From Candidatus Woesearchaeota archaeon (GTDB lineage Archaea > Nanobdellota > Nanobdellia > Woesearchaeales > SM23-78), in contig JAFGGS010000006.1 of NCBI GenBank assembly GCA_016930415.1, forward strand, positions 1 through 59,327: a DNA stretch of 59,327 nucleotides, given 5' to 3'. The translations under genes and the position numbers were made by a program. The notes below the pieces were generated by a model. The model had not been told where the DNA came from. It was given only the letters and a program-made list of their open reading frames with translations, and did not search any database. Below, in pieces: positions 26,194 through 50,351 of the stretch. The stretch's first letter is position 1. Each line of letters opens with the position of its first letter.

Positions 26194-27579
26194 TCATGTG
26201 TCTTTCTTCATGACTTTCTTCTTCACTGTCTTCGCCCCTGCCTGCATCCGCCGCTCCAGTATCGACCATTTCAGTTTCGCGTATTGCAACGGATTCCTTA
26301 TCTTGCTGCATAGCTCGTCTGGTTTGCACACTCCTATTCCTTTGTAGTATCCTGGGTTGTTGCAAGATGGCGGCGGCATTGCTTTCTTCCCTTGCATGCG
26401 CACGTATCTCATCTGGCCGACGATGGCTTGTTCTCGTAAGGGTTCTGGATTGTTCTGGTTCCATTCTTTCAGGCGCGCCTCGATCTTGTCTGGCTCCCAG
26501 CCGCAGCTTTGCAGGAAGTTGGTGAGTGCGAACATGCTCCTCTTCTTGCCGTCCTCGAGTCCTTGGAATATAAGCTTTATGCATGGCGGGAAGGCATCTT
26601 CTGGAATGGCTTTCTCTGGGAGTTCGTATTCTTTCCTATCGCGCGCTGCCCGCTCGGCGTGCTCATATCCTAGGCTTGCTTGCTGGGGCGCGTAGTCAAA
26701 GGCGTTCCGAAGCAGCTGTTCTGCGTCTGCGAAGAGCGCTTTTCGGTCGAGGAAGGGGTGTTTTACTTTCACGTTCTCTGGCTTTGCCTCTTCCTTTGTG
26801 AACTTAAGCACCTCGTTTATGTCCAGGGGGACTGATATCAGCTCTGACTTCTCGTGAAAGGAGTATGGCATCCGGTACATGTGCCTTGAGCTTATCAGGA
26901 TCGTATCTATCTCCAGGAAGGGGTCGACGTTGAGCTTTGGTATGCTGTCTCCGAACTCGTTCTTCTCCTGCCTGGTTATCTCTTCAGGCTTCAGGCCTGT
27001 CTTCTCGACTATCTTCCTGAAGGATCCTCCTTCGAGCTTGAAGATGTCTTCTGCAAGCGGCTTCCTTATGAGCTCTGTGATATACGCTGCGATCCTACGC
27101 GGAGCGTCGGGAAACATCCCTTCTATCTTCTTGTCGCCCACTATCTTCGGGAAGGCTTCGAAGGGCACTGCTATGTGGAATCCCTTGTTGCCTGAGAATT
27201 TGGCGGTTATGCTCTTGACGCCGTTCGCTTTCAGCACGTTTATCGTGTGGAACGCCGCGAGCCGGCTGTATTCAAAGAACTTGCAGTCGATGTCGAGCAC
27301 GAGGTCCCATCCTTTCCTGAGCTTTTCCAGCTCTTCCTTCTTCATGCCGGTGCTTATCTGCAAGGGGTTTATCCAGAGCTCTTCTGAGCAGTGAAGGCTC
27401 GTCATCTTCTGCTTGGCGAGCTCTAAGACGTCAGCAGGGTAGGTCAAGGTGTCTGGCCTCTTGCCGAAGAAGTCTGTGAACCTGAAGGCTATCTCCTTAT
27501 CCTTTGCCTGAGTCACGAGCGCTTCTTGTACGTCAAGCCTCTTATAGTAAGACAGCGTCTTTGCGAATCCCAAACCCAT
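26194..27579 (-). CDS. priS: Single-chain DNA primase: PriS catalytic domain fused to PriL Fe-S domain
   Basis: 461 residues. The N-terminal part (about 1-320) is the archaeo-eukaryotic primase catalytic domain: catalytic LDIDCK with Asp96 and Asp98, nucleotide-binding SGNKGFH at 129-135, and Asp225 before the RMPYSFHEKS segment. The C-terminal part (about 328-435) has the PriL iron-sulphur arrangement with Cys333, Cys406, Cys418 and Cys424 in FPPCIK, PPPSC and GVCKPDELC. The large N-terminal region of PriL is missing. Such compact fused primases are known from Nanoarchaeum equitans. It makes primers for PolD. A TATA box 27 bases upstream predicts a leaderless mRNA. The start ATG is the only good candidate. 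Confidence 0.92.
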   Translation of the reverse strand: MGLGFAKTLSYYKRLDVQEALVTQAKDKEIAFRFTDFFGKRPDTLTYPADVLELAKQKMTSLHCSEELWINPLQISTGMKKEELEKLRKGWDLVLDIDCKFFEYSRLAAFHTINVLKANGVKSITAKFSGNKGFHIAVPFEAFPKIVGDKKIEGMFPDAPRRIAAYITELIRKPLAEDIFKLEGGSFRKIVEKTGLKPEEITRQEKNEFGDSIPKLNVDPFLEIDTILISSRHMYRMPYSFHEKSELISVPLDINEVLKFTKEEAKPENVKVKHPFLDRKALFADAEQLLRNAFDYAPQQASLGYEHAERAARDRKEYELPEKAIPEDAFPPCIKLIFQGLEDGKKRSMFALTNFLQSCGWEPDKIEARLKEWNQNNPEPLREQAIVGQMRYVRMQGKKAMPPPSCNNPGYYKGIGVCKPDELCSKIRNPLQYAKLKWSILERRMQAGAKTVKKKVMKKDT

Positions 27580-36632: not shown

Positions 36633-39600
36633 TTATCCTGCCAACCACGCGCTCAAACCTTCTTGCCGGTCCTTGTCTTTTCCAAACACGCTCTCAACCC
36701 TTTGTTTCAGCAGTTCCAGGCTTTGCTTGAGATAGTTTGGCACTCCATATTTCTCTGCTAACTGCATGCTTAAGTTCAGGTATTTGATCACGAAGCCTTC
36801 TGAGACTGTGAATATCAATCTTCCGCCGCACGCAGTGCATTTGCCTGACAGGGGCGGGCGCCGATATTTCTCATTGCAGTCTATGCACCTGAACTCCTGC
36901 TGCGAGAACTTACGAAGATTCCCTTTCGTGTCTTTCATGAAGTGTTTGTCTATCACGAGCTTGGCGACGTCGCTTGAGTCCACGGCCCTAATCTTTTCGG
37001 CCAGCTCCATCTGGCTCCTTAACTTGTCTTCCATGCTCGGCAGGAGCTTGTAGGCTGAGCAGAGCACGCCTTGATTCATGTCTGAGGTGTCGTGGGTGAA
37101 TCCCATCCTCTCGTATTGGAGCGGGGTGTTCAGGACGTGGCTTACCTGCTTTATCTTGACCTCCCAAGGGGGCTTATAGTTCTTTGCGGCCTCGTAGAAT
37201 GGAAGGTCATACTTCCAGGCGATGTCCATGTTGAATATCATGTCGTCGACCTCGGCCGGGTTCAGGATGTAGGTCAGGACTAGGGGCGCATCCATTGTGC
37301 TGCCTCTGGATTCTGGAAGGTATTTCTTTGAGAAGTTTAGGAGGCCGTCCATCAATAGGAGGAAGCAGCTCTCATCACCATCACAATCTCGCCTCATCGC
37401 TGCATGGATGTAGGGGTGGCTTAGGAATCCTTGGGTTTTCGAAAAGCCAAGTATCCTGCACAAGATGCCTGCAGAGGTGTGCGGAGCGAGTCCTATCACC
37501 AAGTGGCCTATCAAGTCTTCTTTTGTCTTTAGCTTGTAATAAGGCTTCTGACCGTAGAACTTCTCCAGGAGCTCATCTGTGAAGTTGGCCACACGAAACA
37601 TCACCTCATCTGCCGGCTCTTCAGGCGAGACTGGGCTGCAAGGCAAGAGTATGTCTTGCGGCTTTATCTCGAGGATTTGCTCGTCTGAGACTAGTGGTTT
37701 GTTATGGATGTCCTCTTCATATCCTAGTTCGATCAGTTTCTTGACTGTGGCTCCGATCTCCTTTGGCTTGAAATGAGTTATTGGAATCTCTGAACAGTCA
37801 TATCTTACAGTGCCATCCTTATTTACGCACACACTGTGTTTTGCGCGCAGTATGCCTTTCACGAGGTGTTCTGCAGTGTGCTCCTTGTTGCTCGTCCCCT
37901 TCACCCCTTTTATGAGGTCTGGATAGATGTTGGTGTCTATCCTCTTGAGGAGAGCCGGAAAACTTTCCTTCATGTTGAATTTCATGATCTTGTAGAGCTG
38001 GGGATGACATGGCTCTCCGTCAGGATTCATCTTCTCCCTGCAACCTTCGCAATCAGTTCCGAACTTCACTAGTTTGTCTTGCTTCTTGCAATAGCTCATC
38101 TTCTCAGCAGGCTTGTCGCATATCTCGCAAGTGGGAAAGACTGTTTCTCGCTTGCAATACTTACAGTAGAACGGCGTGAACTGGGCTGAGACGAAGCCTT
38201 TTTCAAGGGCTGACTGGAAAGACCGATATTTTCCTCCTTCGTTTCCCACTGGGAAGAGGACATGAGGACTGCTTGTCAACTTTCTCATCTTTGCCTTCTC
38301 AGGCCTGCCCATCCTCGCACCTATGAAGGTTCCGCACCGGTCCCTGATCTCGACCCCAGACACTTTATTCACGAGTTCAAGCGGGTTCTTGGCATTCCCC
38401 GCCGCGACATCCGCTCTTAGCAGCGATATCTTTGTCTCGAGCTCTTCTGGAGTCCTTGCGCCCAGGTTAGCGAGCAGAGCCAACGCGGGGTCTTTCTTTA
38501 TCAAGACTGTTTGGTCCTTGAAGACGTGAGGTGCTCCTATGAGCTCAAGGGATCTCTTAGCGTCGGATCCTTGTATTGCGAGGCATTGCGCGTCATCTTG
38601 CGAGTCAGGATAAGCCTCTTTTTCTGGGATGATCTTTCCTTTCTCAAATATCCACGATGCGAGGTCAATCACATCTTTTTGAGTGATTGAGTTCCAGAAG
38701 AAGATATGGCTTGGGTGAAGGGGGATTTGGAGTGCTTGGCTTATGTGCTTGGCCGCCTCGAGCGAGATCTTTGTCGTGAAGGGTTTCTTGAAGAGGACGT
38801 CGAGTTTTTCAGGGTCGATGTCGACCAAGTCGCTGATCTTTTCAAGGTCAAAAGTCCCGAACAAGCGAAGGGCTGCTCTTTCAAACTCTAAAATCCACTC
38901 TTCCTGGACATAGCCTGCGGGAACCAAAGGATGCGCCCTGTCGAAGAAGTCGCCGTAGTTTATCAGGACGTCTCCTAAATAAAGGATTTCTGAGACGTCA
39001 TTCTTCAGCTCCTTTGCCTCTTTCTCAGTGTCGATCCTGAGCACAGAACCGTTTTTCAGCCTGACGACAGGTCCTTCTATCGTATCACAAGAGGTGTAGG
39101 CGCCTGCCTTCCCAGGCCTCTCTACCTTGAGCTGGGTGGCGATCGCTATGAATTCATTAAGGATTATCATGGTTGCCGGATTGATGCTCTGGGCAGAGTA
39201 GCCTGAGAGCCTGGACCGGCCGTACCTGAGCCTGAAGCCGCCGCTCCTTAGCGGATAACCAAAGACTGGTCTTCCAGCCACGAGGTCTGCGATGTAGGTG
39301 AAATCGGGCTTTATCTTAAGGTCTGATTTCTTATCATCCTTCTTCTTCCCGCCATCTTTTGCTTTCATGGTCTTCTGGATCTTCAGGAATTCATCCAGCC
39401 AGTTCCAGTGCGTCATCTCGAACTTGTCAGCCCATTTGCCGAGTTTTGCCCATACCTTGGGCGCTTTCAAGGGCAACGCAGAGCTATACATCAGGCAGTA
39501 GCCGCTTCTCATCCTGTTGGTCGGTATCCTCGGAAGGTCTTTGAGGGTGACGTTTGATATCTCGTATTTCTCAGAAGGGTCTCCTGATATCTCGACTGGC

Positions 39601-40256
39601 ATGTGAGCCACCATGAAATCCATCTCCTCCTTTGAAGGGAAGTATTGGAGGTTCGTGACCCACTCATGATAGTCTGTTATCTCTGCGTGGCACCTCCTGA
39701 CTTCTTTCTCATCAGGATCATACTGGACGTATCCGCACTTGTTCCTGACGTAGTCTGCTATCAGGACGCATACTGCCGCGGCAGTTCCTCCTGCTGCCCT
39801 GATAGGTCCTGAGAAGTTCAGGCAGAAGAAGTCTCCTGTCCCGTCGCGCCTTGGCTTTAGTTCGAGCTTCGTGAAGCCCTCAAGCGGGGCTGAGACTGCT
39901 CCTAAGGTCACATATGCGAATCCAGTCCTTATCCCGACCTCCATGGCTTCTCTCTTGTCTGGAAACTTGCAGAACTTCTCTTGTGCGACTTCGTGAGCAA
40001 TCTGGAACGCTACCCTCCAATCCAAGACTCCGTGTTCTTTTTCCAAGGTCTCTATCCGTTTGATTGCGCCGGACTCTCTTAGTTGAGGAGCGGCCACGCT
40101 TATCAGGCCGATTACTCTCTCAGCCAGGTTCTTGGCGAGGACTACTTCTGGCTTGGTGTCGGGGTCATAGCCTTTTGCCCTTGCTTTTGAAGCTAGCTTG
40201 TAGGCTTCTAAGGTCTCTTTTTCCAACGCGTCGAAGTATTCTTGGATAGTGGTCAC
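36633..40256 (-). CDS. polC: DNA polymerase D large subunit (DP2), catalytic
   Basis: 1207 residues, without an intein. The catalytic segment RRDCDGDESCF (about 955-965) is the metal-binding centre of the RNA-polymerase-like two-barrel fold. Zinc motifs occur at about 700-750 (CKYCKRETVFPTCEICDK and CEGC) and near 1130 (CIDCNEKYRRPPLSGKCTAC). The short C-terminus after LKQSLELLKQRVESVFGKDK may carry the PCNA/DP1 contact. It is the replicative polymerase of most non-crenarchaeal lineages. Its GTG start overlaps the DP1 stop (GTGA), so the two subunits are translationally coupled. Confidence 0.97.
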   Translation of the reverse strand: MTTIQEYFDALEKETLEAYKLASKARAKGYDPDTKPEVVLAKNLAERVIGLISVAAPQLRESGAIKRIETLEKEHGVLDWRVAFQIAHEVAQEKFCKFPDKREAMEVGIRTGFAYVTLGAVSAPLEGFTKLELKPRRDGTGDFFCLNFSGPIRAAGGTAAAVCVLIADYVRNKCGYVQYDPDEKEVRRCHAEITDYHEWVTNLQYFPSKEEMDFMVAHMPVEISGDPSEKYEISNVTLKDLPRIPTNRMRSGYCLMYSSALPLKAPKVWAKLGKWADKFEMTHWNWLDEFLKIQKTMKAKDGGKKKDDKKSDLKIKPDFTYIADLVAGRPVFGYPLRSGGFRLRYGRSRLSGYSAQSINPATMIILNEFIAIATQLKVERPGKAGAYTSCDTIEGPVVRLKNGSVLRIDTEKEAKELKNDVSEILYLGDVLINYGDFFDRAHPLVPAGYVQEEWILEFERAALRLFGTFDLEKISDLVDIDPEKLDVLFKKPFTTKISLEAAKHISQALQIPLHPSHIFFWNSITQKDVIDLASWIFEKGKIIPEKEAYPDSQDDAQCLAIQGSDAKRSLELIGAPHVFKDQTVLIKKDPALALLANLGARTPEELETKISLLRADVAAGNAKNPLELVNKVSGVEIRDRCGTFIGARMGRPEKAKMRKLTSSPHVLFPVGNEGGKYRSFQSALEKGFVSAQFTPFYCKYCKRETVFPTCEICDKPAEKMSYCKKQDKLVKFGTDCEGCREKMNPDGEPCHPQLYKIMKFNMKESFPALLKRIDTNIYPDLIKGVKGTSNKEHTAEHLVKGILRAKHSVCVNKDGTVRYDCSEIPITHFKPKEIGATVKKLIELGYEEDIHNKPLVSDEQILEIKPQDILLPCSPVSPEEPADEVMFRVANFTDELLEKFYGQKPYYKLKTKEDLIGHLVIGLAPHTSAGILCRILGFSKTQGFLSHPYIHAAMRRDCDGDESCFLLLMDGLLNFSKKYLPESRGSTMDAPLVLTYILNPAEVDDMIFNMDIAWKYDLPFYEAAKNYKPPWEVKIKQVSHVLNTPLQYERMGFTHDTSDMNQGVLCSAYKLLPSMEDKLRSQMELAEKIRAVDSSDVAKLVIDKHFMKDTKGNLRKFSQQEFRCIDCNEKYRRPPLSGKCTACGGRLIFTVSEGFVIKYLNLSMQLAEKYGVPNYLKQSLELLKQRVESVFGKDKDRQEGLSAWLAG

Positions 40257-41737
40257 TTTTCCTGCCCCGCATCTTCAGGCTCAGGAGTTGTTTCAGAGAC
40301 TTCTGGCGCGTTTCCTCTCATGAAGTTTATTATCTTGACTTCTCGCGTCTTTAGGTTCACTATCGGCAGCCTCGCAGGCTGAGGCTCTAAGCCTCGCTTC
40401 TCCTGATCTTCGGTCACGCCATCCCAGCAGGAACAGTTTAGAAGGGTTATATTCTTGTATTGACCCACGCTCGCCCGGTGGATGTGCCCTGTCACGAAAA
40501 AGTCAGGGATGTGTTTGATCACCAAAGGATCCTCTTCGCTGTCTGGGATGTATAGGTTAGATGTGTGCGATGGGGCTAAGTGGCGTCTTTGGAGGAGAAA
40601 CTTCATTATGAGGTCTGGTCTCTTCTGACCCCCTGCTGATCTTATGCTCTCCACATTGTTAGCATAGTAGATCATTGAGTAGCCATGGTATATTAGCATG
40701 TCAAACCCAGGGAAGTTCTCCTTTATGCCGAGTCTCACAATGGCGGGGTTGCTTAGGAGGACTACGTTCGGCAGGGACCTAAGGCTCTCTGCGTAGTTGT
40801 GGAGTATCGGCTGTTGGGGTTCTGAGAGCCTTCCTGCGTCGTGGTTCCCAGGGATTATGAAGAGGGTGATGTCTGTTGGGATTGATTTCAAGTAGTTTGA
40901 GAACAAGTCATACTGCGCTTTCACGTCGTTTATCTCAAGATCCTCCTCTTGGCCAGGATATATCCCCACACCTTCAACAAGATCTCCCGTAAATATTATG
41001 TACTTGACCTTCGACGCAATGCGCCTTTGCGCCGCGTTTCCTCTCTTCTGGTTGACCCACGCGATGAAGTCGGCGAAGGAGTCTTTCAGGAAAAATTTTG
41101 AGCCGAAGTGAGGGTCTCCGACGAACAGGACGTACTCTTCTTCAGGGCCTTTTTTGAGCTCTTTTGTTGAGGGGATGTCCGGCACGAATATCTGGTTCGC
41201 GAAGAGGTAGCCGTTTGATATGGTTCCTTCCACTCCGATCACTTCATCAAGCATGACTTCCTTCGCCTGCGCATATAATTCCTGCTTGTCCTGGCGTACC
41301 AGCACTTTTATGGTTCCTGTCGGGTCCTCTAATGTTATCATCACGTTGTTCTTCTTTGTGACGCTCTTCTCATAGACTAGGCCTATCGCTGACGCCCGAT
41401 CCTTGTCCTTCTTTGCTTTTAGCCTTGCCAAGCTCATCACGTTCTGGAGCTCAGTCCTCTGCCGCAAGAAGGATGATAATGCTTCTAGCCTGCGGTTGAA
41501 GTAGCTGACGAAGTCGGTCAGGCTTATCTTCTTTGGTTTCTTTGAATAGGAGAACAAGATCTCGAAGTGCGAACTTTTTGGAAGCGCGTCTTTTGAGAAG
41601 AAATCCCTGCCTATCAGATCTACTCCTTCGAAAGCAGACACGTCGAGGGACTCTAGTTTCTCAAGAAGTTCAGGGTCTTCTGTCACGTCCGGACTTACGA
41701 GAATCCCTTTTTCTAAGAGCGTATCTACAATAGCCAT
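40253..41737 (-). CDS. polB: DNA polymerase D small subunit (DP1), proofreading exonuclease
   Basis: 494 residues from ATG 41737 (MAIVDTLLEKGILVSPD), which follows GGTGAG. An upstream extension to 42010 would run inside cdc6 and is not protein-like. An OB fold (about 120-195, with TIKVLVRQDKQELY) precedes the phosphoesterase domain. Its metal-site motifs are FVGDPHFGS, FTGDLVEG, PGNHDAG, YHGYS and VTGHIHRA, all intact. It supplies 3'-5' exonuclease activity and contacts PCNA in the family. Confidence 0.95.
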   Translation of the reverse strand: MAIVDTLLEKGILVSPDVTEDPELLEKLESLDVSAFEGVDLIGRDFFSKDALPKSSHFEILFSYSKKPKKISLTDFVSYFNRRLEALSSFLRQRTELQNVMSLARLKAKKDKDRASAIGLVYEKSVTKKNNVMITLEDPTGTIKVLVRQDKQELYAQAKEVMLDEVIGVEGTISNGYLFANQIFVPDIPSTKELKKGPEEEYVLFVGDPHFGSKFFLKDSFADFIAWVNQKRGNAAQRRIASKVKYIIFTGDLVEGVGIYPGQEEDLEINDVKAQYDLFSNYLKSIPTDITLFIIPGNHDAGRLSEPQQPILHNYAESLRSLPNVVLLSNPAIVRLGIKENFPGFDMLIYHGYSMIYYANNVESIRSAGGQKRPDLIMKFLLQRRHLAPSHTSNLYIPDSEEDPLVIKHIPDFFVTGHIHRASVGQYKNITLLNCSCWDGVTEDQEKRGLEPQPARLPIVNLKTREVKIINFMRGNAPEVSETTPEPEDAGQEK

Positions 41738-41811
41738 GTTCTCACCAGCTAATAAAGCCGCCTTGTTCGGCGGGAAAAAATGAAAAGTCAAGGTTATTTG
41801 GGGTTGATTGT

Positions 41812-43020
41812 TCAGTTTAGCAGGTCTTCTTCCAATATCTTCTTGATGTTCTGCTCCAAATATGTTGGGAGCTGGAAGCTTATGTCTCTCGTCCTTCCGA
41901 GCCTGCCTTTTGAAATGACTTTGGCGTTTATTATACCCAGCATGTCTAGCTCTGCTATGATATCTGACACCCTCCTTTGGGTAAGGGGGCGAAGACCTAC
42001 CTTGTTGCATATCTCTCTATAAGTGTCATACACGTCGCCAGTCTGTATGAAATTGAACTTGGAGTCTTTCTTGTTGACCAATATGGCATAGAGCGTGGCT
42101 TGGAATTGTTTTGGGTGATTCTTGACTAGTTCTAAGACCCTGTCTCGCTCTATTGTGTCTTCTGCCTCGTCAATCTCCTTCATCGATATCTTCTTGAGAT
42201 TTTTTCTTTCAGCAAGCTCTCCCGCCACTCTCAGCAGTTCGAGGGCTCGCCTTGCGTCTCCGTGCTCTCTTGCGGCGTAGGCAGCGCACTTCTGGATGAC
42301 ACCATCATCCATTATCTCGTCCTTGAAGGCCTCGCTTGATCTCCTTTGGAGTATGTCTTGGAGTTGGAGCGCGTTGTAGGGGGGAAATATCACTTCCTCC
42401 TCGCTTAAGCTGCTCTTGACTCTCGGGTCCAGGCTGTTTGAGAAGACGAGGTCGTTGCTTATGCCAACTATTGAGGTCTGAGAGTTCTTGAGCTCAGAGT
42501 TGATCCTTGTAAGGTTGTATATGAGCTCATCCCCTGCTTTCTTGACGAGTTGATCTATCTCGTCGAGTATGAGGATTATCACTTGCTTCTCCTCGTCAAG
42601 GACCTTGTAGAATGTGTTGTATACTTCGTCAGTCGGAAGCCCCGTCGGCGGGATCTCCTTGCCGAATGATCTTGCGAGTTCCGCTACTAGCCGATACTCT
42701 GTGTCAGCGACTTTCTTTAGCTTGCAGTTGAGGTAGACTATCTTTAAGGGTATCTTCTTATTGTAGGCTAGCGTCGTCATCTGCTCTGCTAAGTACCTGA
42801 CTGAAAGCGTCTTGCCTGTGCCTGTCTTCCCGTAGATGAAGACGTTTGATGGCTTTTCCATCTTCAGCGCGGGTGCGAGGATGTTGGCTATCAGGGTTAT
42901 TTGCTCGTCGCGGTGGTTGATCTCGCCTGGGATGTAGGCTGATTGCAACACCTTTTTGTTTTTGAAGAATGATTCTCTTTCCAGGAATCCTTCCAGGAGC
43001 TTGTTGATATTATTTACCAA
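41812..43020 (-). CDS. cdc6: Orc1/Cdc6 replication initiator
   Basis: 402 residues. AAA+ domain with Walker A IYGKTGTGKTLSVR (63-76) and Walker B ILILDEIDQLV (149-159); sensor and lid region to about 290. The C-terminal winged helix (about 310-402) would bind origin boxes. The start is TTG after AAAGGTGA. It recognises origin recognition boxes and loads MCM. It lies upstream of the PolD genes and next to a 950-base AT-rich gap holding box-like cores, the classic archaeal arrangement at an origin. Confidence 0.95.
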   Translation of the reverse strand: MVNNINKLLEGFLERESFFKNKKVLQSAYIPGEINHRDEQITLIANILAPALKMEKPSNVFIYGKTGTGKTLSVRYLAEQMTTLAYNKKIPLKIVYLNCKLKKVADTEYRLVAELARSFGKEIPPTGLPTDEVYNTFYKVLDEEKQVIILILDEIDQLVKKAGDELIYNLTRINSELKNSQTSIVGISNDLVFSNSLDPRVKSSLSEEEVIFPPYNALQLQDILQRRSSEAFKDEIMDDGVIQKCAAYAAREHGDARRALELLRVAGELAERKNLKKISMKEIDEAEDTIERDRVLELVKNHPKQFQATLYAILVNKKDSKFNFIQTGDVYDTYREICNKVGLRPLTQRRVSDIIAELDMLGIINAKVISKGRLGRTRDISFQLPTYLEQNIKKILEEDLLN

Positions 43021-43976
43021 GATTTCACCTTTGAATTGTTGGAGAACTCAAAGTTTTTCATTCTATTTTTTGATTGTTTGCTTGTAGATTTTGAGTTTTT
43101 TAGTCGACTCTTCATTATTTTTCCCCCAACCAAAATCTCCAGATGAAGCAGGGGTTTATAAACATTCCTTTCCTGTGGAATATATTCAAAAAAATGCCAG
43201 ATTATGAAATATGTTTTGCAAAACACACAACACGAAACTAGACACCCACACCTTTATTTCCTTTGGAATTTTTTTGAAAGTGAAAATTGAGGTTGAAAAT
43301 ATGTTAAGTTTGGGTTATGACGGACTCTTTTGAAGTGTGTTTTGGAAAATATCCTCAATAAGTAGATTTAAAATGAAAGGGTAAAATTAGTTGAAAAGTA
43401 TGTTTTTAAGATAAGAATTGGATTTTTGATGTGGTTTTAGTATTATTCAATCTTTGTGTTTTTTGTTGTTCTTGCTTGTTTTTTTGAATTTTTTTCATTT
43501 TTATTGAAAACATAATGTAAAATATATAATATAATATAAATAATATAATATATAATATATATAATATATTTCTATATAGAAATGTAATGAAACAAAACGA
43601 GAAAAAATTACAAAAAAGAAAAAAAATTGAAGAAGGAAACATAAGATGAATGAGAAACAAAGAAAAAAGAATCTGAAAGAAAAATTTGATTGAAAATGAA
43701 AGAAAAATTTGATTGAAAAATTTGATTTTTTACGTGTTGTGGATTGAGTTGATTCAATTTTTTTGGCGTTCATTTTCTTTTCGAGTTGAAACCAAGGGGT
43801 GGGTGTGTTTGGAAGCGCAATTTTCCTTCTCAATTCTTGATTTAAGCTCGTTTTACCTCCAATTAAAAAAATTTGTTTTCACTATCTAATAACAACAAAA
43901 GAGAAACCTTTATAAATAAGAACCATTTCCTCTAAGTTCCAACTGATGACAAAATACATGAGAGGTTAGCAAAAAA
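43021..43976. other. Long AT-rich intergenic region upstream of cdc6 (candidate unwinding element / origin)
   Basis: 956 bases without a credible gene. Two origin-box-like cores lie at 43169-43180 (TTTCCTGTGGAA) and 43257-43268 (TTTCCTTTGGAA). About 70 bases at 43511-43580 are almost pure A+T. A perfect 16-base palindrome is at 43568-43583 (ATTTCTAT/ATAGAAAT). A 23-base direct repeat is at 43674-43696 and 43697-43719. A palindromic GTTTATAAAC (43154-43163) can serve as the cdc6 TATA box, and CTTTATAAATA (43908-43918) as that of the second TrmB gene. The rest is A-rich or T-rich filler. Confidence 0.6.
43674..43719 (+). repeat. 23-base tandem direct repeat, two copies
   Basis: Two adjoining identical copies at 43674-43696 and 43697-43719, each containing AGAAAAATTTGATTG, followed by a third partial copy (AATTTGATTT). 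It lies inside the AT-rich gap and may simply reflect low complexity. Confidence 0.6.
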
Positions 43977-44762
43977 ATGATAGTACAGGAATCTTTTTTG
44001 AAGAAAATCAAAGACTTTGGCCTCAACAGCTACGAAGCCAAGATATGGACAGCCCTACTCTCAAGAGGGGTTTCAACAGCAGGAGAGCTCTCTGACATCG
44101 CAGGAGTACCAAGAAGCAGGAGCTACGACATCCTAGAAAGCCTGGAAAAGAAAGGCTTCATAGTGATGAAGATCGGAAAGCCAATCAAGTACATGGCAAT
44201 CCCTCCAGAAGAAGTCGTTGACAGGGTCAAGAAGAAAGTCCTGATCCAAGCAGAAGAGCAGAACAAGATGCTAGAGCAGCTGAAAGGAAGTGAAGTCTTA
44301 ACCGAGCTCAACCTCTTACACACGCAAGGAGTGGATATGGTCAACCCAGCAGAGCTAACTGCAGTCATCAAAGGCAGGAACCAGATCTACAACCACCTCT
44401 CAAGCATGATAAAAGGCGCGAAGAAGAGCGTCGTCCTGGTAACCACTGAAGATGGTCTCATCTCAAAACACAAGCACTTCGGATCAGTCTTCAAGAAGAT
44501 GAGCGACAAGGGAGTAAAGATAAGGATAATGGCACCCTTAACAGGCAAATCAAAAGACGTCGTCGGAGAGCTCAAGAAGCACGCAGACATCTCAAACATC
44601 AAAAGCCTCGGTGCAAGATTCTGCATAGTGGACGACAAGGAGCTGGCGTTCATGCTCATGGACGACTCAAAAGTCCACCCGACCTACGACTCCGCAGTCT
44701 GGGTCAACACACCGGTCTTTGCCGAAACCTTAAGCAAGGCAATACACAAGGCAGAGCTTTAA
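43977..44762 (+). CDS. TrmB-family transcriptional regulator (second paralogue)
   Basis: 261 residues, aligned end to end with the protein at 2236-3045. The winged-helix segment is almost identical (SRGVSTAGELSDIAGVPRSR), the C-terminal domain more divergent but with shared motifs such as HPTYD. GAGAGGTT precedes the ATG. Near identity of the recognition helix suggests that both proteins could bind the same operators while sensing different ligands. It is followed by a SpoIIM-like gene with its own promoter. Confidence 0.87.
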   Translation: MIVQESFLKKIKDFGLNSYEAKIWTALLSRGVSTAGELSDIAGVPRSRSYDILESLEKKGFIVMKIGKPIKYMAIPPEEVVDRVKKKVLIQAEEQNKMLEQLKGSEVLTELNLLHTQGVDMVNPAELTAVIKGRNQIYNHLSSMIKGAKKSVVLVTTEDGLISKHKHFGSVFKKMSDKGVKIRIMAPLTGKSKDVVGELKKHADISNIKSLGARFCIVDDKELAFMLMDDSKVHPTYDSAVWVNTPVFAETLSKAIHKAEL

Positions 44763-44862
44763 GCAAAATAACCAAAAACTAGTTTTCTCAAACTCTTTTT
44801 CACATTAATTTTCTTCATTCGTTTTCTTTATAATCACTCTCGCTCTAATCAACATCCAAAAT

Positions 44863-44872
44863 GTTTATAAAT
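44863..44872 (+). promoter_or_regulatory. TATA box of the SpoIIM-like gene
   Basis: GTTTATAAAT is centred 27 bases before the ATG at 44895, predicting a leaderless mRNA. Confidence 0.5.
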
Positions 44873-44894
44873 CTCTTATTGCAGTATCACGCGA

Positions 44895-45755
44895 ATGGTA
44901 CTGGAGTCCTTGATCACCCCTTTCAGGGCGGAGCAGAAGCCTGGCAGGCTCTTCTTCATAGGATTCCTATTCTGCAGCGTCGCCATCTTCCTAAGCCTTT
45001 GGATCTTCAAGAGCCAGGCGAGCCTGATAATGGTCTTCCTGACCACCATGGCAGCCCTGCCGCTGATATACAACACGGTCCTTATGGAAGAAGAGAAAGG
45101 GCTTGAGGGTATGGAAGAATCATGGCTCCTAAAAGAGCACGCGAAGGCTCTTAAGGCCTTCATATTCCTCTTCATAGGCGCAACGCTCGCCTTCTCATTC
45201 TGGTATGTGGTCTTATCAGCCCCGACAACCAACGTCTTGTTCGAGAGCCAGACAGACACGATAAACTCGATAAACGGCAGGCTCACAAGCTACGTGCCCC
45301 TTAACATGAGCGTGTCTTTCTTCTCAAAGATATTCTTCAACAACGTCAAAGTGCTCATATTCTGCATATTGTTCTCATTCATATACGGCGCGGGAGCGGC
45401 TTTCATACTTATGTGGAACGCTTCAGTCATAGGCGCGGCCATAGGCAATTTCATGCGGGTAGAGCTGGCTGACGTGGCGCACCTCATAGGACTCGATAAG
45501 ATATTCCATTATTTCCAGATAATCAGCTTCGGACTCTTGAGATACTCGATACACGGCATCCCGGAGATATTGGCCTACTTCGTCGGCGCAATGGCTGGAG
45601 GCATAATAAGCATTGCCATAATCAAGCACGATTTCGGGACCAAGAAGTTTGAGCAAGTCCTCATGGACTCGGCAGACCTGATAATCCTGAGTATAGGCGT
45701 GCTCTTCGTGGCGGCGATACTGGAAGTCTTTGTCACACCAGTAATCTTCGGTTAG
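44895..45755 (+). CDS. SpoIIM/DUF95-family integral membrane protein
   Basis: 286 residues with about six membrane segments. FFNNVKVLIFCILFSFIYGA, WNASVIGAAIG and HGIPEILAYFVGAMAGG are the conserved features of stage II sporulation protein M relatives. Archaea do not sporulate; the archaeal members are of unknown function, probably membrane or envelope related. It converges with the RPA-like gene, 30 bases away. Confidence 0.85.
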   Translation: MVLESLITPFRAEQKPGRLFFIGFLFCSVAIFLSLWIFKSQASLIMVFLTTMAALPLIYNTVLMEEEKGLEGMEESWLLKEHAKALKAFIFLFIGATLAFSFWYVVLSAPTTNVLFESQTDTINSINGRLTSYVPLNMSVSFFSKIFFNNVKVLIFCILFSFIYGAGAAFILMWNASVIGAAIGNFMRVELADVAHLIGLDKIFHYFQIISFGLLRYSIHGIPEILAYFVGAMAGGIISIAIIKHDFGTKKFEQVLMDSADLIILSIGVLFVAAILEVFVTPVIFG

Positions 45756-45785: not shown

Positions 45786-46406
45786 TTACTCAAGCACCTT
45801 GAGCTTGCCTGGCTTGATCTCGAAGATCTCCCCCTCTTCAATCAGCTTCCTCACAAACTCTTCTGAATTAGGCGCTCCTGAGCGCTTCATGACCTCATCC
45901 ACGTCTGCGCCGCTGCCAGAGTCAAGATCCCTTATGAACTCGACGATCTTCTGATAGTGGTTGACTGGCAGTTCATTCTCTTCTTTGATGAGTACCTTGT
46001 TCTCTTTAGGCTTGACGATTACCGGGGCGTTCCGCCTGGACATCTCCAGCTGGATCTTGCGATACCCACCCCAACGAGGATCGATCTTCCTGATGATCTC
46101 TGGTGTAAGATACTTCTGGTCGCTGTAAGCCCTCGGCCTTCCCACTATCAGGACAAAGTCCCCTATCCCCACTCCGTTGAATGAGTTTTCCTCAAAGCTC
46201 CTCAAGAGCATCCTGCCGCTCCCATCATCCAGGACTGCCCCCTCATCGTCCTTAGAGACAATGACTCCGAAAAGGCTGGCTCTCGATATCCTGCCAATCC
46301 CCGTGTCAAAATAGCTCGGGTTCCACCCTTCTGTCTTGACAAAGCTTCCGTTCAGAAGATCATCTATCATGCATACTGTCGCTGTTTCGCGTTTGACTTG
46401 TGCCAT
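45786..46406 (-). CDS. RPA32-like single-stranded DNA-binding protein (OB fold plus winged helix)
   Basis: 206 residues. The OB-fold part (about 20-110) shows RISRASLFGVIVSKDDEGAV, then LDDGSGRMLLRSF and IGDFVLIVGRPR. The C-terminal 60 residues (HYQKIVEFIRDLDSGSGADV and on) form a winged helix, as in RPA32. The ATG at 46406 (MAQVKRETATV) follows GGGTGTGA; a longer reading to 46463 adds 19 unlike residues. It lies 70 bases after mcm, so it is probably cotranscribed with it and acts at the replication fork. Confidence 0.8.
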   Translation of the reverse strand: MAQVKRETATVCMIDDLLNGSFVKTEGWNPSYFDTGIGRISRASLFGVIVSKDDEGAVLDDGSGRMLLRSFEENSFNGVGIGDFVLIVGRPRAYSDQKYLTPEIIRKIDPRWGGYRKIQLEMSRRNAPVIVKPKENKVLIKEENELPVNHYQKIVEFIRDLDSGSGADVDEVMKRSGAPNSEEFVRKLIEEGEIFEIKPGKLKVLE

Positions 46407-46476
46407 CCATTCACACCCTAACCCTTTTATTCGGATCGCATCTGAAGCGCAACCCATTACCATCTTGTTTTTCTCT

Positions 46477-48495
46477 TCATTCGATCTTGGCGATTACTCC
46501 ATGCTTCGGGCTGTATATGTCGCCTGACTTCTTAAGCTTCTCAATTACTTCATTAGTCTTGTCCTTGTCAACGCCCCGAAGCTCACATTCACGCTCAACG
46601 TCCTCTAAAGGTATGACCTTTCCAAACACCCTCTCAAGCTCGTTTATGACTTCTTTCACAGTCACCACATGGTTCCTGTGGGAGGCAGTTATTCCTGTCG
46701 TCAAGGTGTCGATGTCAATCTTTCCAGTCTCAGGGTCAAGGCCTATCTGGGACAGTGAGTAGTGGAGCAGGTCAATAGCTTTTCTGGCGTCTTTCTTAGT
46801 GACTTTAGTCCTAAGTTCGCTCTTTGCGCTCGCCTCGCTCATCCTGACCATTGCCTCGAGCTGTCTTGCGCTTACTGGGATTGCCCTGATCTTTCCATCC
46901 TCCTGCCCCGCATTTCTCATGGTCACGTAGTACTCTTTGATCTCTTTCGTGGCCGCATCCGTGAGCTTAGGCTTTATCCTTCTCCTGGCGTACGAAACAT
47001 ACTTCTTGATCTTGTCAGAGTCAAAGAACGTTTCCTTCTTCTCATCGCTCTGATGCAAGTCAAGAAGGAAGTTGGCAAGAGCGCCATCCCCTTCCTTACT
47101 TGGAAGATCTCTTATAGCGAATATAAGGTCGAATCTGTTGAGAAGTGTTGGTGGAAGGTCTATTTGTTTGGCTATGAGTTCGTAAGGGTCAAATCGGCCT
47201 AGTTTTGGGTTTGCGGCGGCCAAGACAGTAGTCTCTGCCTTGAGAGTGGCCTGGATGTTGGCCTTTGCAATGGTGATGGTCTGCTGTTCAAGGCCTTCGT
47301 GCATAGCCACCTGGTCTTCTTTTGTCATCTTATCAAGCTCGTCAATGCAACAGATTCCTTTGTTGGTGAGGACCAGCGCTCCTGCTTCTAAAGCCCACCC
47401 TTTGAGGAACTCGTCCTTCACGACGCTCGCAGTGAGGCCCGCGCCGCTAGCGCCTTTTCCACTCACATACCTGCTCTTAGGAGCAACTGTGCTTACCCTT
47501 TTTAGGAGCTGGCTCTTTCCGCTTCCAGGATCCCCTATTAGGAGGATGTGCATGTCTCCCCTAGTCACATCTCCCTTCTCCCTCTTCTTAGGGACTCCTC
47601 CAAACATCTGGAGCAAGATGGCTTCTTTCACCTTTTCATGACCGTATATGCTTGGTGCAAGCGAGTCTCTTAGCTTGTCGAACACATTAGGGTCTTTTGC
47701 CAGTTCCCTAATCTCCTGTTCTTCCTCTTCGCTTATCTCAAGCTCGTAGAAATCTTCCTGGACCGCTTCGACAAAATTGGTGTCTAAGAACAGGTCGAAC
47801 TTAGTGGTCTTGATCCCATGCTGCTCTATCGGGATCTCTTTTACAACCCCATTCACCCTGACCTTGCTTCCAGGATTGGTCTTCTTATCGCTAAGAGGGC
47901 TTACTAGGTCGCTTTTGAGGAAAATCGCAAGCCTCTTTGGCTGCTCTCCCCCATCCAGGTCTTCAGGGGCTTCTTCAAGCACAATCCTCTGGGCGTCTAT
48001 AAGCTCTTTTGAGATTGTCCTGAAGCGCCCTTTCCTGCCGCAACTGCACCTACTCGGCTCCTTGAAGACAGTGTCTGTCTGCAATACTGTGATTATGTTG
48101 CCGCAGGCAGGGCATTCGAATCTTGCGCTGGTCACTTGAGGGCGCACGTCACTCTTCTGCCTGACTAGGCCATCAAACTCGACTAGCTTGTCTATGTGTG
48201 TGGCCCTGATGTGCCTGATGCTTACCCTCTGGGATTCTGGCAGGCCAAAGAACCTCACCCTGAAGCTCTTGGTGTCTCCCTCTATGTCGAAGTTGGCGAT
48301 TGCCAGTTCTGCCGCCCTGATGGTGTCTTCTGGATTCTCAAGGAGCATCTCTGCGAGCTCAGGATTGTATTTTGCTAGAAGCGAAAAGTCTATCTTAAGG
48401 AATTTTTCCCCTTTGCTTGCCTGCCTTACAAGGTCTTTGTGATAATCTGATTCTATGAACTCGTAGAACAGGTTTATTTGTTCACTCACATCCAA
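46477..48495 (-). CDS. mcm: Replicative helicase MCM
   Basis: 672 residues, no intein. The N-terminal domain contains the zinc motif CPACGN...CSCGRKG (about 125-160). AAA+ domain: Walker A GDPGSGKSQLL (about 320), Walker B CIDELDKM, sensor 1 AAANP and arginine finger LLNRFDLIF. A C-terminal winged helix (about 600-672) ends the protein. The start is TTG (or the GTG two codons later). It forms the hexameric 3'-5' helicase loaded by Orc1/Cdc6. TBP, upstream on the same strand, is 132 bases away. Confidence 0.97.
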   Translation of the reverse strand: MDVSEQINLFYEFIESDYHKDLVRQASKGEKFLKIDFSLLAKYNPELAEMLLENPEDTIRAAELAIANFDIEGDTKSFRVRFFGLPESQRVSIRHIRATHIDKLVEFDGLVRQKSDVRPQVTSARFECPACGNIITVLQTDTVFKEPSRCSCGRKGRFRTISKELIDAQRIVLEEAPEDLDGGEQPKRLAIFLKSDLVSPLSDKKTNPGSKVRVNGVVKEIPIEQHGIKTTKFDLFLDTNFVEAVQEDFYELEISEEEEQEIRELAKDPNVFDKLRDSLAPSIYGHEKVKEAILLQMFGGVPKKREKGDVTRGDMHILLIGDPGSGKSQLLKRVSTVAPKSRYVSGKGASGAGLTASVVKDEFLKGWALEAGALVLTNKGICCIDELDKMTKEDQVAMHEGLEQQTITIAKANIQATLKAETTVLAAANPKLGRFDPYELIAKQIDLPPTLLNRFDLIFAIRDLPSKEGDGALANFLLDLHQSDEKKETFFDSDKIKKYVSYARRRIKPKLTDAATKEIKEYYVTMRNAGQEDGKIRAIPVSARQLEAMVRMSEASAKSELRTKVTKKDARKAIDLLHYSLSQIGLDPETGKIDIDTLTTGITASHRNHVVTVKEVINELERVFGKVIPLEDVERECELRGVDKDKTNEVIEKLKKSGDIYSPKHGVIAKIE

Positions 48496-48627: not shown

Positions 48628-49305
48628 TTATTTGACTGCCTTCAGGGTCTCTACCAGCTTATCGAGCGCAGTGTGGACCTCTGCTTCAGACTTGGTTCCT
48701 GTGCAAACAACCTTCCCGTTGCTGAACAATAGGAATGTGGCCTTTGCTTCCATAAGCTTGTATACGAGTCCTGGGAACTGCTCTGGCTCATATTCTGTGT
48801 TGTCAAGTTTCATGGCTAGAACGTTAAGGTTAAGGTCCATCCCTATGTTGCCGCTGGCGACTATGTTCTGGATGTTGATCTTCGGAGTCACAGTTATCTT
48901 TATGCCTATCTTCTTGAGACTCTCTATGATCCTTTCAATGCTCTCATGCACCTTCTCCATGCTCCTCGCGCCAGTGCACACTACCTTTCCGGAGCTGAAG
49001 ATGAGGGCGCTCGTCTTAGGATCCTTTATCCTTATGACCAGCCCTGGAAACTGCTCTGGATTGTATTCTGTGTTGCTCAGGGTAGCTGCCATCTTCTCGA
49101 GCGGGATGTCATGCTCAAGGCTCGTCGAGACTACTATGTTGACTACTTTTATGTCTTTAGGTCCTGCGTCAGGGTACTTATCTACCTTGGCTTTCTGGAC
49201 TTTCGGCACCATCTTCTTTGCTGGCACCGCATTCTTAGATTTCGCTACCTTGCCCTTCTTGGGCTTTGGCGCGCTGGTTTTCTTGGTTGTTTTTTTCTTT
49301 TTCAT
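48628..49305 (-). CDS. tbp: TATA-box-binding protein with a Lys-rich N-terminal extension
   Basis: 225 residues. The TBP saddle (about 50-225) shows its two homologous halves: NTEYNPEQFPGLVIRI with FSSGKVVCTGA, and NTEYEPEQFPGLVYKL with FSNGKVVCTGT. The first 46 residues are nearly all Lys, Ala, Pro, Thr and Val, unlike typical archaeal TBPs of about 180 residues. This tail could add nonspecific DNA contacts. A TATA box (49331-49340) 30 bases upstream supports the ATG used. Confidence 0.95.
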   Translation of the reverse strand: MKKKKTTKKTSAPKPKKGKVAKSKNAVPAKKMVPKVQKAKVDKYPDAGPKDIKVVNIVVSTSLEHDIPLEKMAATLSNTEYNPEQFPGLVIRIKDPKTSALIFSSGKVVCTGARSMEKVHESIERIIESLKKIGIKITVTPKINIQNIVASGNIGMDLNLNVLAMKLDNTEYEPEQFPGLVYKLMEAKATFLLFSNGKVVCTGTKSEAEVHTALDKLVETLKAVK

Positions 49306-49423
49306 CCGACTCCCCCCAAATTTAGTCGAGAGCTTTAAAAACCCTTTATAAATGAGGAAATGCAGATTCGTTTATAAATGCTTCTGTTTAAGCTCAAAAA
49401 CGTTTTTTCCCACCCTCTTAAAC

Positions 49424-49450
49424 TAACCCCCCATCATTTCCTGTGGAAAC
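49424..49450 (-). promoter_or_regulatory. Origin-recognition-box-like element 1
   Basis: On the plus strand CCCCCC (49427-49432), then TCAT, then TTCCTGTGGAAAC. On the minus strand it reads GTTTCCACAGGAA, a short spacer and six G, like known Orc1/Cdc6 boxes. Confidence 0.65.
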
Positions 49451-49510
49451 GCCATTTTTAGCCCATTATAACGGCGGAAACGAGAGGAGTTGAACACATT
49501 TTCGAGCCAA

Positions 49511-49537
49511 ATAACCCCCCATTATTTCCTGTGGAAC
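49511..49537 (-). promoter_or_regulatory. Origin-recognition-box-like element 2
   Basis: Same orientation as element 1 and nearly identical: CCCCCC (49515-49520), then TTTCCTGTGGAAC ending at 49537. It starts 87 bases after element 1 starts. Confidence 0.65.
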
Positions 49538-49551
49538 TTCCTCTTAGCCAA

Positions 49552-49566
49552 TTCTCCACAGGAAGC
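49552..49566 (+). promoter_or_regulatory. Partial origin-box core, inverted
   Basis: TTCTCCACAGGAAGC is the inverse orientation of the box core in elements 1 and 2, without a G string after it. Confidence 0.4.
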
Positions 49567-49617
49567 TTTTGCAGGCCTAAAGCGCTCTTCCCCTTCTTTC
49601 ATGAGAGATTTAAAAAG

Positions 49618-49627
49618 ATTTATATAT
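49618..49627 (+). promoter_or_regulatory. TATA box of the coiled-coil/winged-helix gene
   Basis: TTTATATATG is centred 27 bases before the ATG at 49650 and favours that start over the ATG at 49626, which lies inside the box. Confidence 0.5.
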
Positions 49628-49649
49628 GGATAATTCCAGTTATCTCTTC

Positions 49650-50351
49650 ATGTTAGGGTGGCTCAGGAAGAGGATTGAGCAGAAAGAGCTTCATTCAAGC
49701 CTGTCATCTGCCTTCTTGAAGATAAAGGAGGACTTGACCCTCCAGAAGAACTTCATCGAGGACCTTCATAAGAATCACTCTCATTTGAAGGATAATACCT
49801 CTGTAAATCACCAGCGCATCGCTGAGTGGATAATCCATTTCGACAAGTCCATAAAGCGTCTTGAGAAGGATCTCTTGACGCTTGAGAATAAGATATATGC
49901 TGACCTGGCCACGATGGTGGTCGATTCTTCAAAGAAGCTGGAGGGTTCGCTGCACGCCCACAAGGCAGAGCTCCACACCCTCAAAGAGGTCTTGAAAGAG
50001 GAACTGAAGCGTGACCTCTTGGTTTTTGTTGAAGATTCCAAGCTCAAACGCGCTTCTGAGCCCGTTATTAACGTTGATAACGTTGATAATGTTAATAACA
50101 TAACGTCTGAGGCTAGTTTTGAGGCCCTTTCCAATCCTGAGAAGTGGCTCGTGGGGGTTTTGTTCAACACAGAGGCCCCTCTTTCATATGCTCAGATAGC
50201 TGAGCGGACGGGCAAGTCCATCAGTACTGTGAGAGTATATATGAACCAGCTTAAGATTAAGGGTTTTGTTGAGGAGTCAAGCCTTCCTAATGGCGTGAAG
50301 ATATTCAGCCTTAAACACAAGGCTAAGGTGAAGAAGCTCTATAATCTTTGA
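49650..50351 (+). CDS. Coiled-coil protein with C-terminal winged-helix domain, beside the candidate origin
   Basis: 233 residues from ATG 49650 (MLGWLRKRIEQKELHSSLSS). I prefer this to ATG 49626 because of the TATA position. The first 140 residues form long charged helices, probably a coiled coil. A linker VINVDNVDNVNNIT is encoded by four tandem 9-base repeats. The last 80 residues (EKWLVGVLFNTEAPLSYAQIAERTGKSISTVRVYMNQLKIKGFVEE) form a helix-turn-helix/winged helix. I know no named family. DNA binding is inferred from the winged helix; binding to the neighbouring repeats is a hypothesis. Confidence 0.75.
   Translation: MLGWLRKRIEQKELHSSLSSAFLKIKEDLTLQKNFIEDLHKNHSHLKDNTSVNHQRIAEWIIHFDKSIKRLEKDLLTLENKIYADLATMVVDSSKKLEGSLHAHKAELHTLKEVLKEELKRDLLVFVEDSKLKRASEPVINVDNVDNVNNITSEASFEALSNPEKWLVGVLFNTEAPLSYAQIAERTGKSISTVRVYMNQLKIKGFVEESSLPNGVKIFSLKHKAKVKKLYNL
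50064..50099 (+). repeat. Four tandem 9-base repeats inside the coding region
   Basis: GTTATTAAC, GTTGATAAC, GTTGATAAT and GTTAATAAC follow without gaps. The first and last are exact inverse complements. The same words recur at 50561-50577 downstream of the gene. Confidence 0.85.

Follow-up and report, generated by a model that had tools for sequence, protein, structure and literature searches.

Tandem ORB elements upstream of a TBP–MCM operon in a Woesearchaeota-like archaeon as a putative operator of the Orc1/Cdc6 initiator

Genes and ORB elements upstream of TBP

The window analysed here is the whole of one contig (C11, 59,327 bp) from a genome of 1.30 Mb (22 contigs, 91% complete). Among named genomes 'Euryarchaeota archaeon SM23-78' matches best (80% Cdc6 identity), and the majority of the remaining matches are named Woesearchaeota or Nanoarchaeota; comparison was made with ~117 related genomes of Woesearchaeota-like DPANN archaea, whose order we take as Woesearchaeales-like. 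Among the papers searched, one joins 'Woesearchaeota' with 'replication origin', and it is a G-quadruplex survey. No tRNA or RNA features were found in the 59,327-bp window. A 461-aa ORF at 26194-27579 encodes, like Nanoarchaeum, a primase in fused form: it matches the small subunit of the archaeal enzyme as well as the large one.

A putative operon on the minus strand opens with the gene for TBP (48628-49305; Pfam PF00352, E 4.7e-63) and continues with that for the MCM helicase (46477-48495; Pfam PF00493, E 7.3e-92) and with an ORF for a 225-aa protein (45786-46463) that is probably RPA-like, judging from its sequence (an OB fold and a C-terminal winged helix) and its conserved place behind MCM. 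Farther to the left on the same strand lie the Orc1/Cdc6 initiator gene (41812-43020; Pfam Cdc6_C E 2e-26; nearest solved structure Sulfolobus Orc1-1, 2qby_A, E 5.6e-103) and, behind it, the large and small subunits of PolD (36633-42010; Pfam). The initial annotation had named these neighbours from the sequence, and Pfam searches confirm PolD, Cdc6, MCM and TBP, whereas the ORF that it called RPA (45786-46463) returned no Pfam hit. It had also described transcription as diverging upstream of TBP, which is roughly so, except that TrmB and SpoIIM (43977-45755) stand on the left side yet on the plus strand. The divergent gene to the right encodes a coiled-coil/winged-helix protein (49650-50351, plus strand), and G003 and G006 have its orthologue in the corresponding position; the ORF in the window is listed from 49626, and since a TATA-like TTTATATAT ends at 49627, the ATG at 49650 is the likelier start. 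In relatives the genes usually run Cdc6>DP1>DP2 ... <RPA-like<MCM<TBP, and ORBs bound the array on either side; relative to this order the cdc6 block of the window is inverted.

Between TBP and the divergent gene lie two 28-nt elements, 49421-49448 and 49509-49536, which are 93% identical, have the same orientation and start 88 bp apart, each with a six-C run at an equal distance from TTTCCTGTGGAA; the pair is thus as first described. The ORBs within them are CCCCCCATCATTTCCTGTGGAA (ORB 1, 49427-49448, plus strand, 23.6 bits), with its C-run toward the TBP gene, and CCCCCCATTATTTCCTGTGGAA (ORB 2, 49515-49536, plus strand), and both join a dyad to an adjacent G-run at fixed spacing (consensus nnACCCCTTnATTTCCTnTGGAAA). 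Their assignment as ORBs of the Orc1/Cdc6 kind, which the initial annotation had proposed, is well supported, and they are predicted binding sites of Cdc6. In Pyrococcus, Sulfolobus and haloarchaea the ORBs of oriC1 likewise carry the dyad TTCC-nnn-GGAA with a G-run at a fixed distance and serve an Orc1-1-type initiator (PMC2643942, PMC4010727).

The elements are rare in the genome. Searched at ≤3 mismatches, CCCCNNATTNTTTCCTGTGGAA matches only the two TBP-side places genome-wide, against none for the reversed-pattern control, and a sequence model of the element (E up to 0.5) run over the whole 1.30 Mb gives three matches, at 49427-49448, 49515-49536 and 43247-43270. Of the three full ORBs two are here and one is beside cdc6, and those of the TBP-side pair are the strongest. 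An inverted third core that had been reported is present at 49554-49565 (minus strand), but it is weak, scoring 7.9 bits (E 0.38 even within the window) with 2 mismatches; it has no C/G run and was rejected as a full ORB. One more exact core, the fourth, is at C17:788 and was also set aside; it looks like chance, its surroundings being without a C-run or origin features.

The TBP promoter is the softest stretch of the reported TBP-side region, whose AT content is 59.6%. Neither an AT-rich unwinding element nor inverted ORBs around an unwinding region were found at this site, in the window or in relatives, and the initiator gene does not adjoin it: cdc6 is 6 kb off, a separation already remarked in the initial annotation. 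The TBP promoter contains two TTTATAAA boxes on the minus strand (49345-49352 and 49371-49378), ~93 and ~68 bp from the dyad of ORB 1, with similar offsets in relatives. Several TTTATAAA-like boxes occur in TBP promoters of the order at repeated offsets of ~40, 55, 70, 82 and 94 bp from the ORB, and it is possible that these repeated boxes serve autoregulation by TBP.

The region upstream of cdc6

The gap upstream of cdc6 (43021-43976) is 73% AT, against a window mean of 50.6%, and holds several features that the initial annotation had missed. These are the third full ORB of the genome (43247-43270, plus strand, 20.3 bits in the window search), an ORB core at 43169-43180 (plus strand, 9.6 bits) whose distance to the core at 43257 is again exactly 88 bp, a degenerate inverted ORB-like element at 43787-43801 (minus strand, 9.6 bits; TTCGAGTTGAAACCAAGGGG on the plus strand), and a candidate unwinding element at 43479-43590 that reaches 93% AT and contains the most AT-rich and least stable 100-bp stretch in the 59 kb. 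The window's own region has one full ORB and weaker elements around the 93% AT stretch, and across the order inverted ORBs flank an AT-rich element beside cdc6. Archaeal origins are AT-rich regions with flanking ORBs that adjoin cdc6 (PMC4010727), so the architecture favours the cdc6 site, and oriC is most likely the cdc6-upstream region, about 43135-43801, 6 kb from the TBP-side site. The order of cdc6 followed by the PolD genes is also that of the Pyrococcus oriC (PMC2643942, PMC4010727).

The initial annotation had proposed cumulative skew as a check on the origin. Cumulative GC and GGGT/ACCC skew, computed at 20 points on the complete single-contig relative G016 (1.30 Mb), has its minimum at ~740-820 kb and, contig end aside, its maximum at ~90-190 kb. 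The gene cluster of this relative (764-781 kb) lies inside the span of the minimum, and the replication origin is very probably in the neighbourhood of this cluster; the TBP and cdc6 sites, 16 kb apart there, are not separated at a resolution of ~65 kb. Skew at fourfold sites differs between the cdc6/PolD and the MCM/TBP genes by 0.029 +/- 0.047, which does not separate the two sites either.

About 24 genomes (L198-L253) carry an ORB-like element over the cdc6 TATA box (TTTATAnACCTTnnTTTCnnnTGGAAA) and start site, opposite in orientation to the next ORB. This position suggests that the initiator regulates its own gene.

ORB layouts and distribution among relatives

At 2 mismatches CCCCNNNNATTTCCTGTGGAA finds matches in 75 of the 117 relatives and its reversed control few. 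Combined with the positions of TBP and Cdc6, the search gives 47 matches upstream of TBP in 43 genomes, all but one in the same direction (46/47), and 32 upstream of cdc6 in 28 genomes. The stretch from TBP to cdc6 was taken from 56 genomes (57 with the window), and a position weight matrix trained on the TBP-upstream sites alone was run on the remaining DNA at a threshold of 13. It recovers cdc6-side ORBs in 53-54 of the 57 genomes, window included, at a density of 2.9/kb upstream of cdc6 versus 0.026/kb in the rest of the same stretches (~100-fold) and 0.002/kb in shuffled DNA; since the matrix had seen only TBP-side sites, one motif is common to both. Both the matrix and the sequence model were trained on these very sites and are to that extent circular, so the independent evidence consists of the exact-pattern searches and of the cdc6 sites detected by the TBP-only matrix.

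The two sites differ in layout. TBP-side ORBs face one way in 67 of 73 cases (the other way in 6) and number one or two per site, and 17 of the 19 pairs have a spacing of 81-88 bp, or ~8 helical turns, which the window shares; the DNA between them is 64.5% AT, with a regional mean of ~61%. TATA-like boxes recur 54-57 and 70-71 bp from the dyad of the TBP-side ORB, and the distance from ORB to gene start is more variable, so that at the TBP side it is to core promoter elements that the boxes hold a fixed position, as at an initiator-controlled promoter. On the cdc6 side, genomes typically have an ORB at close to 100 bp and a second, inverted ORB beyond it, and the DNA between the two is 82% AT versus 61.5% regionally.

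TBP-side ORBs were found in at least 71 of the 111 genomes with TBP, a count that is a lower bound: about a third of the order's genomes gave no TBP-side ORB, and some of these cases are incomplete or unread contigs or diverged motifs. In G012 and G094 TBP has moved away, yet an 83-bp pair is kept ~100-115 bp upstream of MCM. No ORB was found at the relocated TBP genes of these two genomes or at five second copies of TBP. TBP itself was accordingly rejected as the reason for the ORBs, since MCM retains the pair after TBP leaves and other TBP copies are without it. Other families of the class contributed 20 TBP genes, and none of these has the element, even though TBP is still beside MCM in several of the genomes sampled; the putative control would therefore not be essential to that operon. 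In many Pacearchaeota loci, however, this matrix does recover ORBs near cdc6.

Elsewhere in 59 relatives there are 26 strong ORBs, some of them near MCM alone, ftsZ, a FEN1-like gene, or small coiled-coil/winged-helix genes (assigned by eye). In G034 one stands ~300 bp ahead of an FtsZ-like gene (L293:2547; identity by eye), in G008 another lies ~120 bp ahead of two genes of which the last is FEN1-like (L302:303; by eye), and several stray ORBs (L284, L285, L291, L301) precede small wHTH-like genes that have a DUF192-like gene behind them (by eye). At Pacearchaeota and Woesearchaeota loci an ORB is found in frame inside coiled-coil/winged-helix genes, where it encodes the peptide S-x-G-N-x-G-V (TCC ACA GGA AAT GAA GGG GT; L171:2156-2902, L185:3090-3794, L194:1217-1882, L197:4390-5019, L158:1294-1959, L142:5162-5752). 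Next to the ORB-carrying gene there is often one distantly homologous to the window's gene at 49650-50351 (phmmer E about 1e-8 in a very small set). The scattered ORBs may point to a small ORB-linked regulon or a mobile set. The MCM genes of G057, G115, G066, G032 and G111 match in two blocks within one long frame (~1100 to 1900 aa), which suggests inteins in the ATPase domain.

A putative initiator-bound operator and its alternatives

We favour, with moderate confidence, a reading in which the TBP-side pair serves the promoter of the TBP–MCM–RPA-like operon as an operator for Orc1/Cdc6, and the origin proper lies upstream of cdc6. The initial annotation had instead proposed the TBP-adjacent site as the origin itself, and such a site, as the origin or as a second one, would account for the presence there of the genome's strongest ORBs, for the skew minimum around the cluster in G016 and for the roughly divergent transcription. 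That interpretation is nevertheless improbable. Throughout the order the tandem ORBs at TBP have neither an inverted partner nor an AT-rich element, both of which the cdc6 region 6 kb away possesses; in Sulfolobus islandicus neither of the two inverted ORBs that surround the AT-rich element can be dispensed with (PMC12141716); and the TBP-side ORBs are locked to TATA boxes.

The two clusters could also be parts of one extended origin, with the unwinding core at cdc6 and with TBP-side ORBs that load or store Orc1/Cdc6 (titration, cf. datA for DnaA) or recruit MCM. Their closeness in most genomes (mostly 6-12 kb between the genes) and their common motif agree with this idea, which we regard as unlikely, if less so than a TBP-side origin, because the element stays with TBP though cdc6 is on another contig (e.g. 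G077, G081), stays with MCM once TBP leaves, and keeps a fixed spacing to TATA boxes that titration does not predict. The least probable alternative in our estimation is an operator bound by another protein, for which the second Orc1/Cdc6 paralogue and the product of the divergent coiled-coil/winged-helix gene would be candidates. A second Cdc6 match, weaker than the first, does occur in the genome of the window and in most relatives, regulation of transcription is the role of Sulfolobus Orc1-2 (PMC9738581), and homologues of the divergent gene stand beside ORBs elsewhere; against this, the motif is that of the cdc6 site, C-run included, Cdc6-1 is close to the ORB-binding Orc1-1, and outside the genus the divergent gene is absent from this place.

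If the pair is an operator, Orc1/Cdc6 monomers would bind it with like polarity and ~8 helical turns from each other, the nearer one ~70 bp and the farther one ~155 bp upstream of the main TATA box. The operon would then be activated or repressed according to the amount and nucleotide state of the initiator, and the proposal accommodates either sign. As an operator, or alternatively as a titration site, the pair would tie the level of initiator to the supply of helicase and TBP. The TBP-side site is within ~10 kb of the probable origin, and an accessory role in replication is thus possible.

There are precedents for initiators that act as transcription factors, namely DnaA (PMC8203912) and Sulfolobus Orc1-2 (PMC9738581), and by analogy with both we infer that Cdc6 may occupy the TBP/MCM promoter boxes and adjust the operon. 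Bacterial DnaA boxes at the dnaA and nrdAB promoters similarly place initiator boxes at replication genes, and it has been proposed that they couple the supply for replication to the level of the initiator (PMC8203912), although the protein and the box are unrelated and the putative target operon here holds a general factor, TBP, together with the helicase. Orc1-2 is an Orc1/Cdc6-family protein that acts at promoters including its own through an ANTTTC element (PMC9738581), but it does not act as an initiator and its site is short and asymmetric, whereas here the sites are full ORBs as at the probable origin. With respect to oriC1 itself, the cdc6-side cluster fits the known plan, and the TBP-side pair departs from it in being tandem, without an AT-rich element and inside the TBP/MCM promoter.

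Extended to the order, the proposal is that Orc1/Cdc6 directly controls the single TBP and MCM operon via a helically phased pair of full ORBs, the code of oriC being reused as a promoter switch; this broader statement we hold tentatively, as a plausible idea that falls short of conviction. If true, it would be an archaeal counterpart of gene control by DnaA boxes that is built from full origin boxes, and both replication supply and basal transcription would be tied to the initiator. It would also correct the prediction of origins in DPANN genomes, as oriC would not necessarily be where the strongest ORBs lie.
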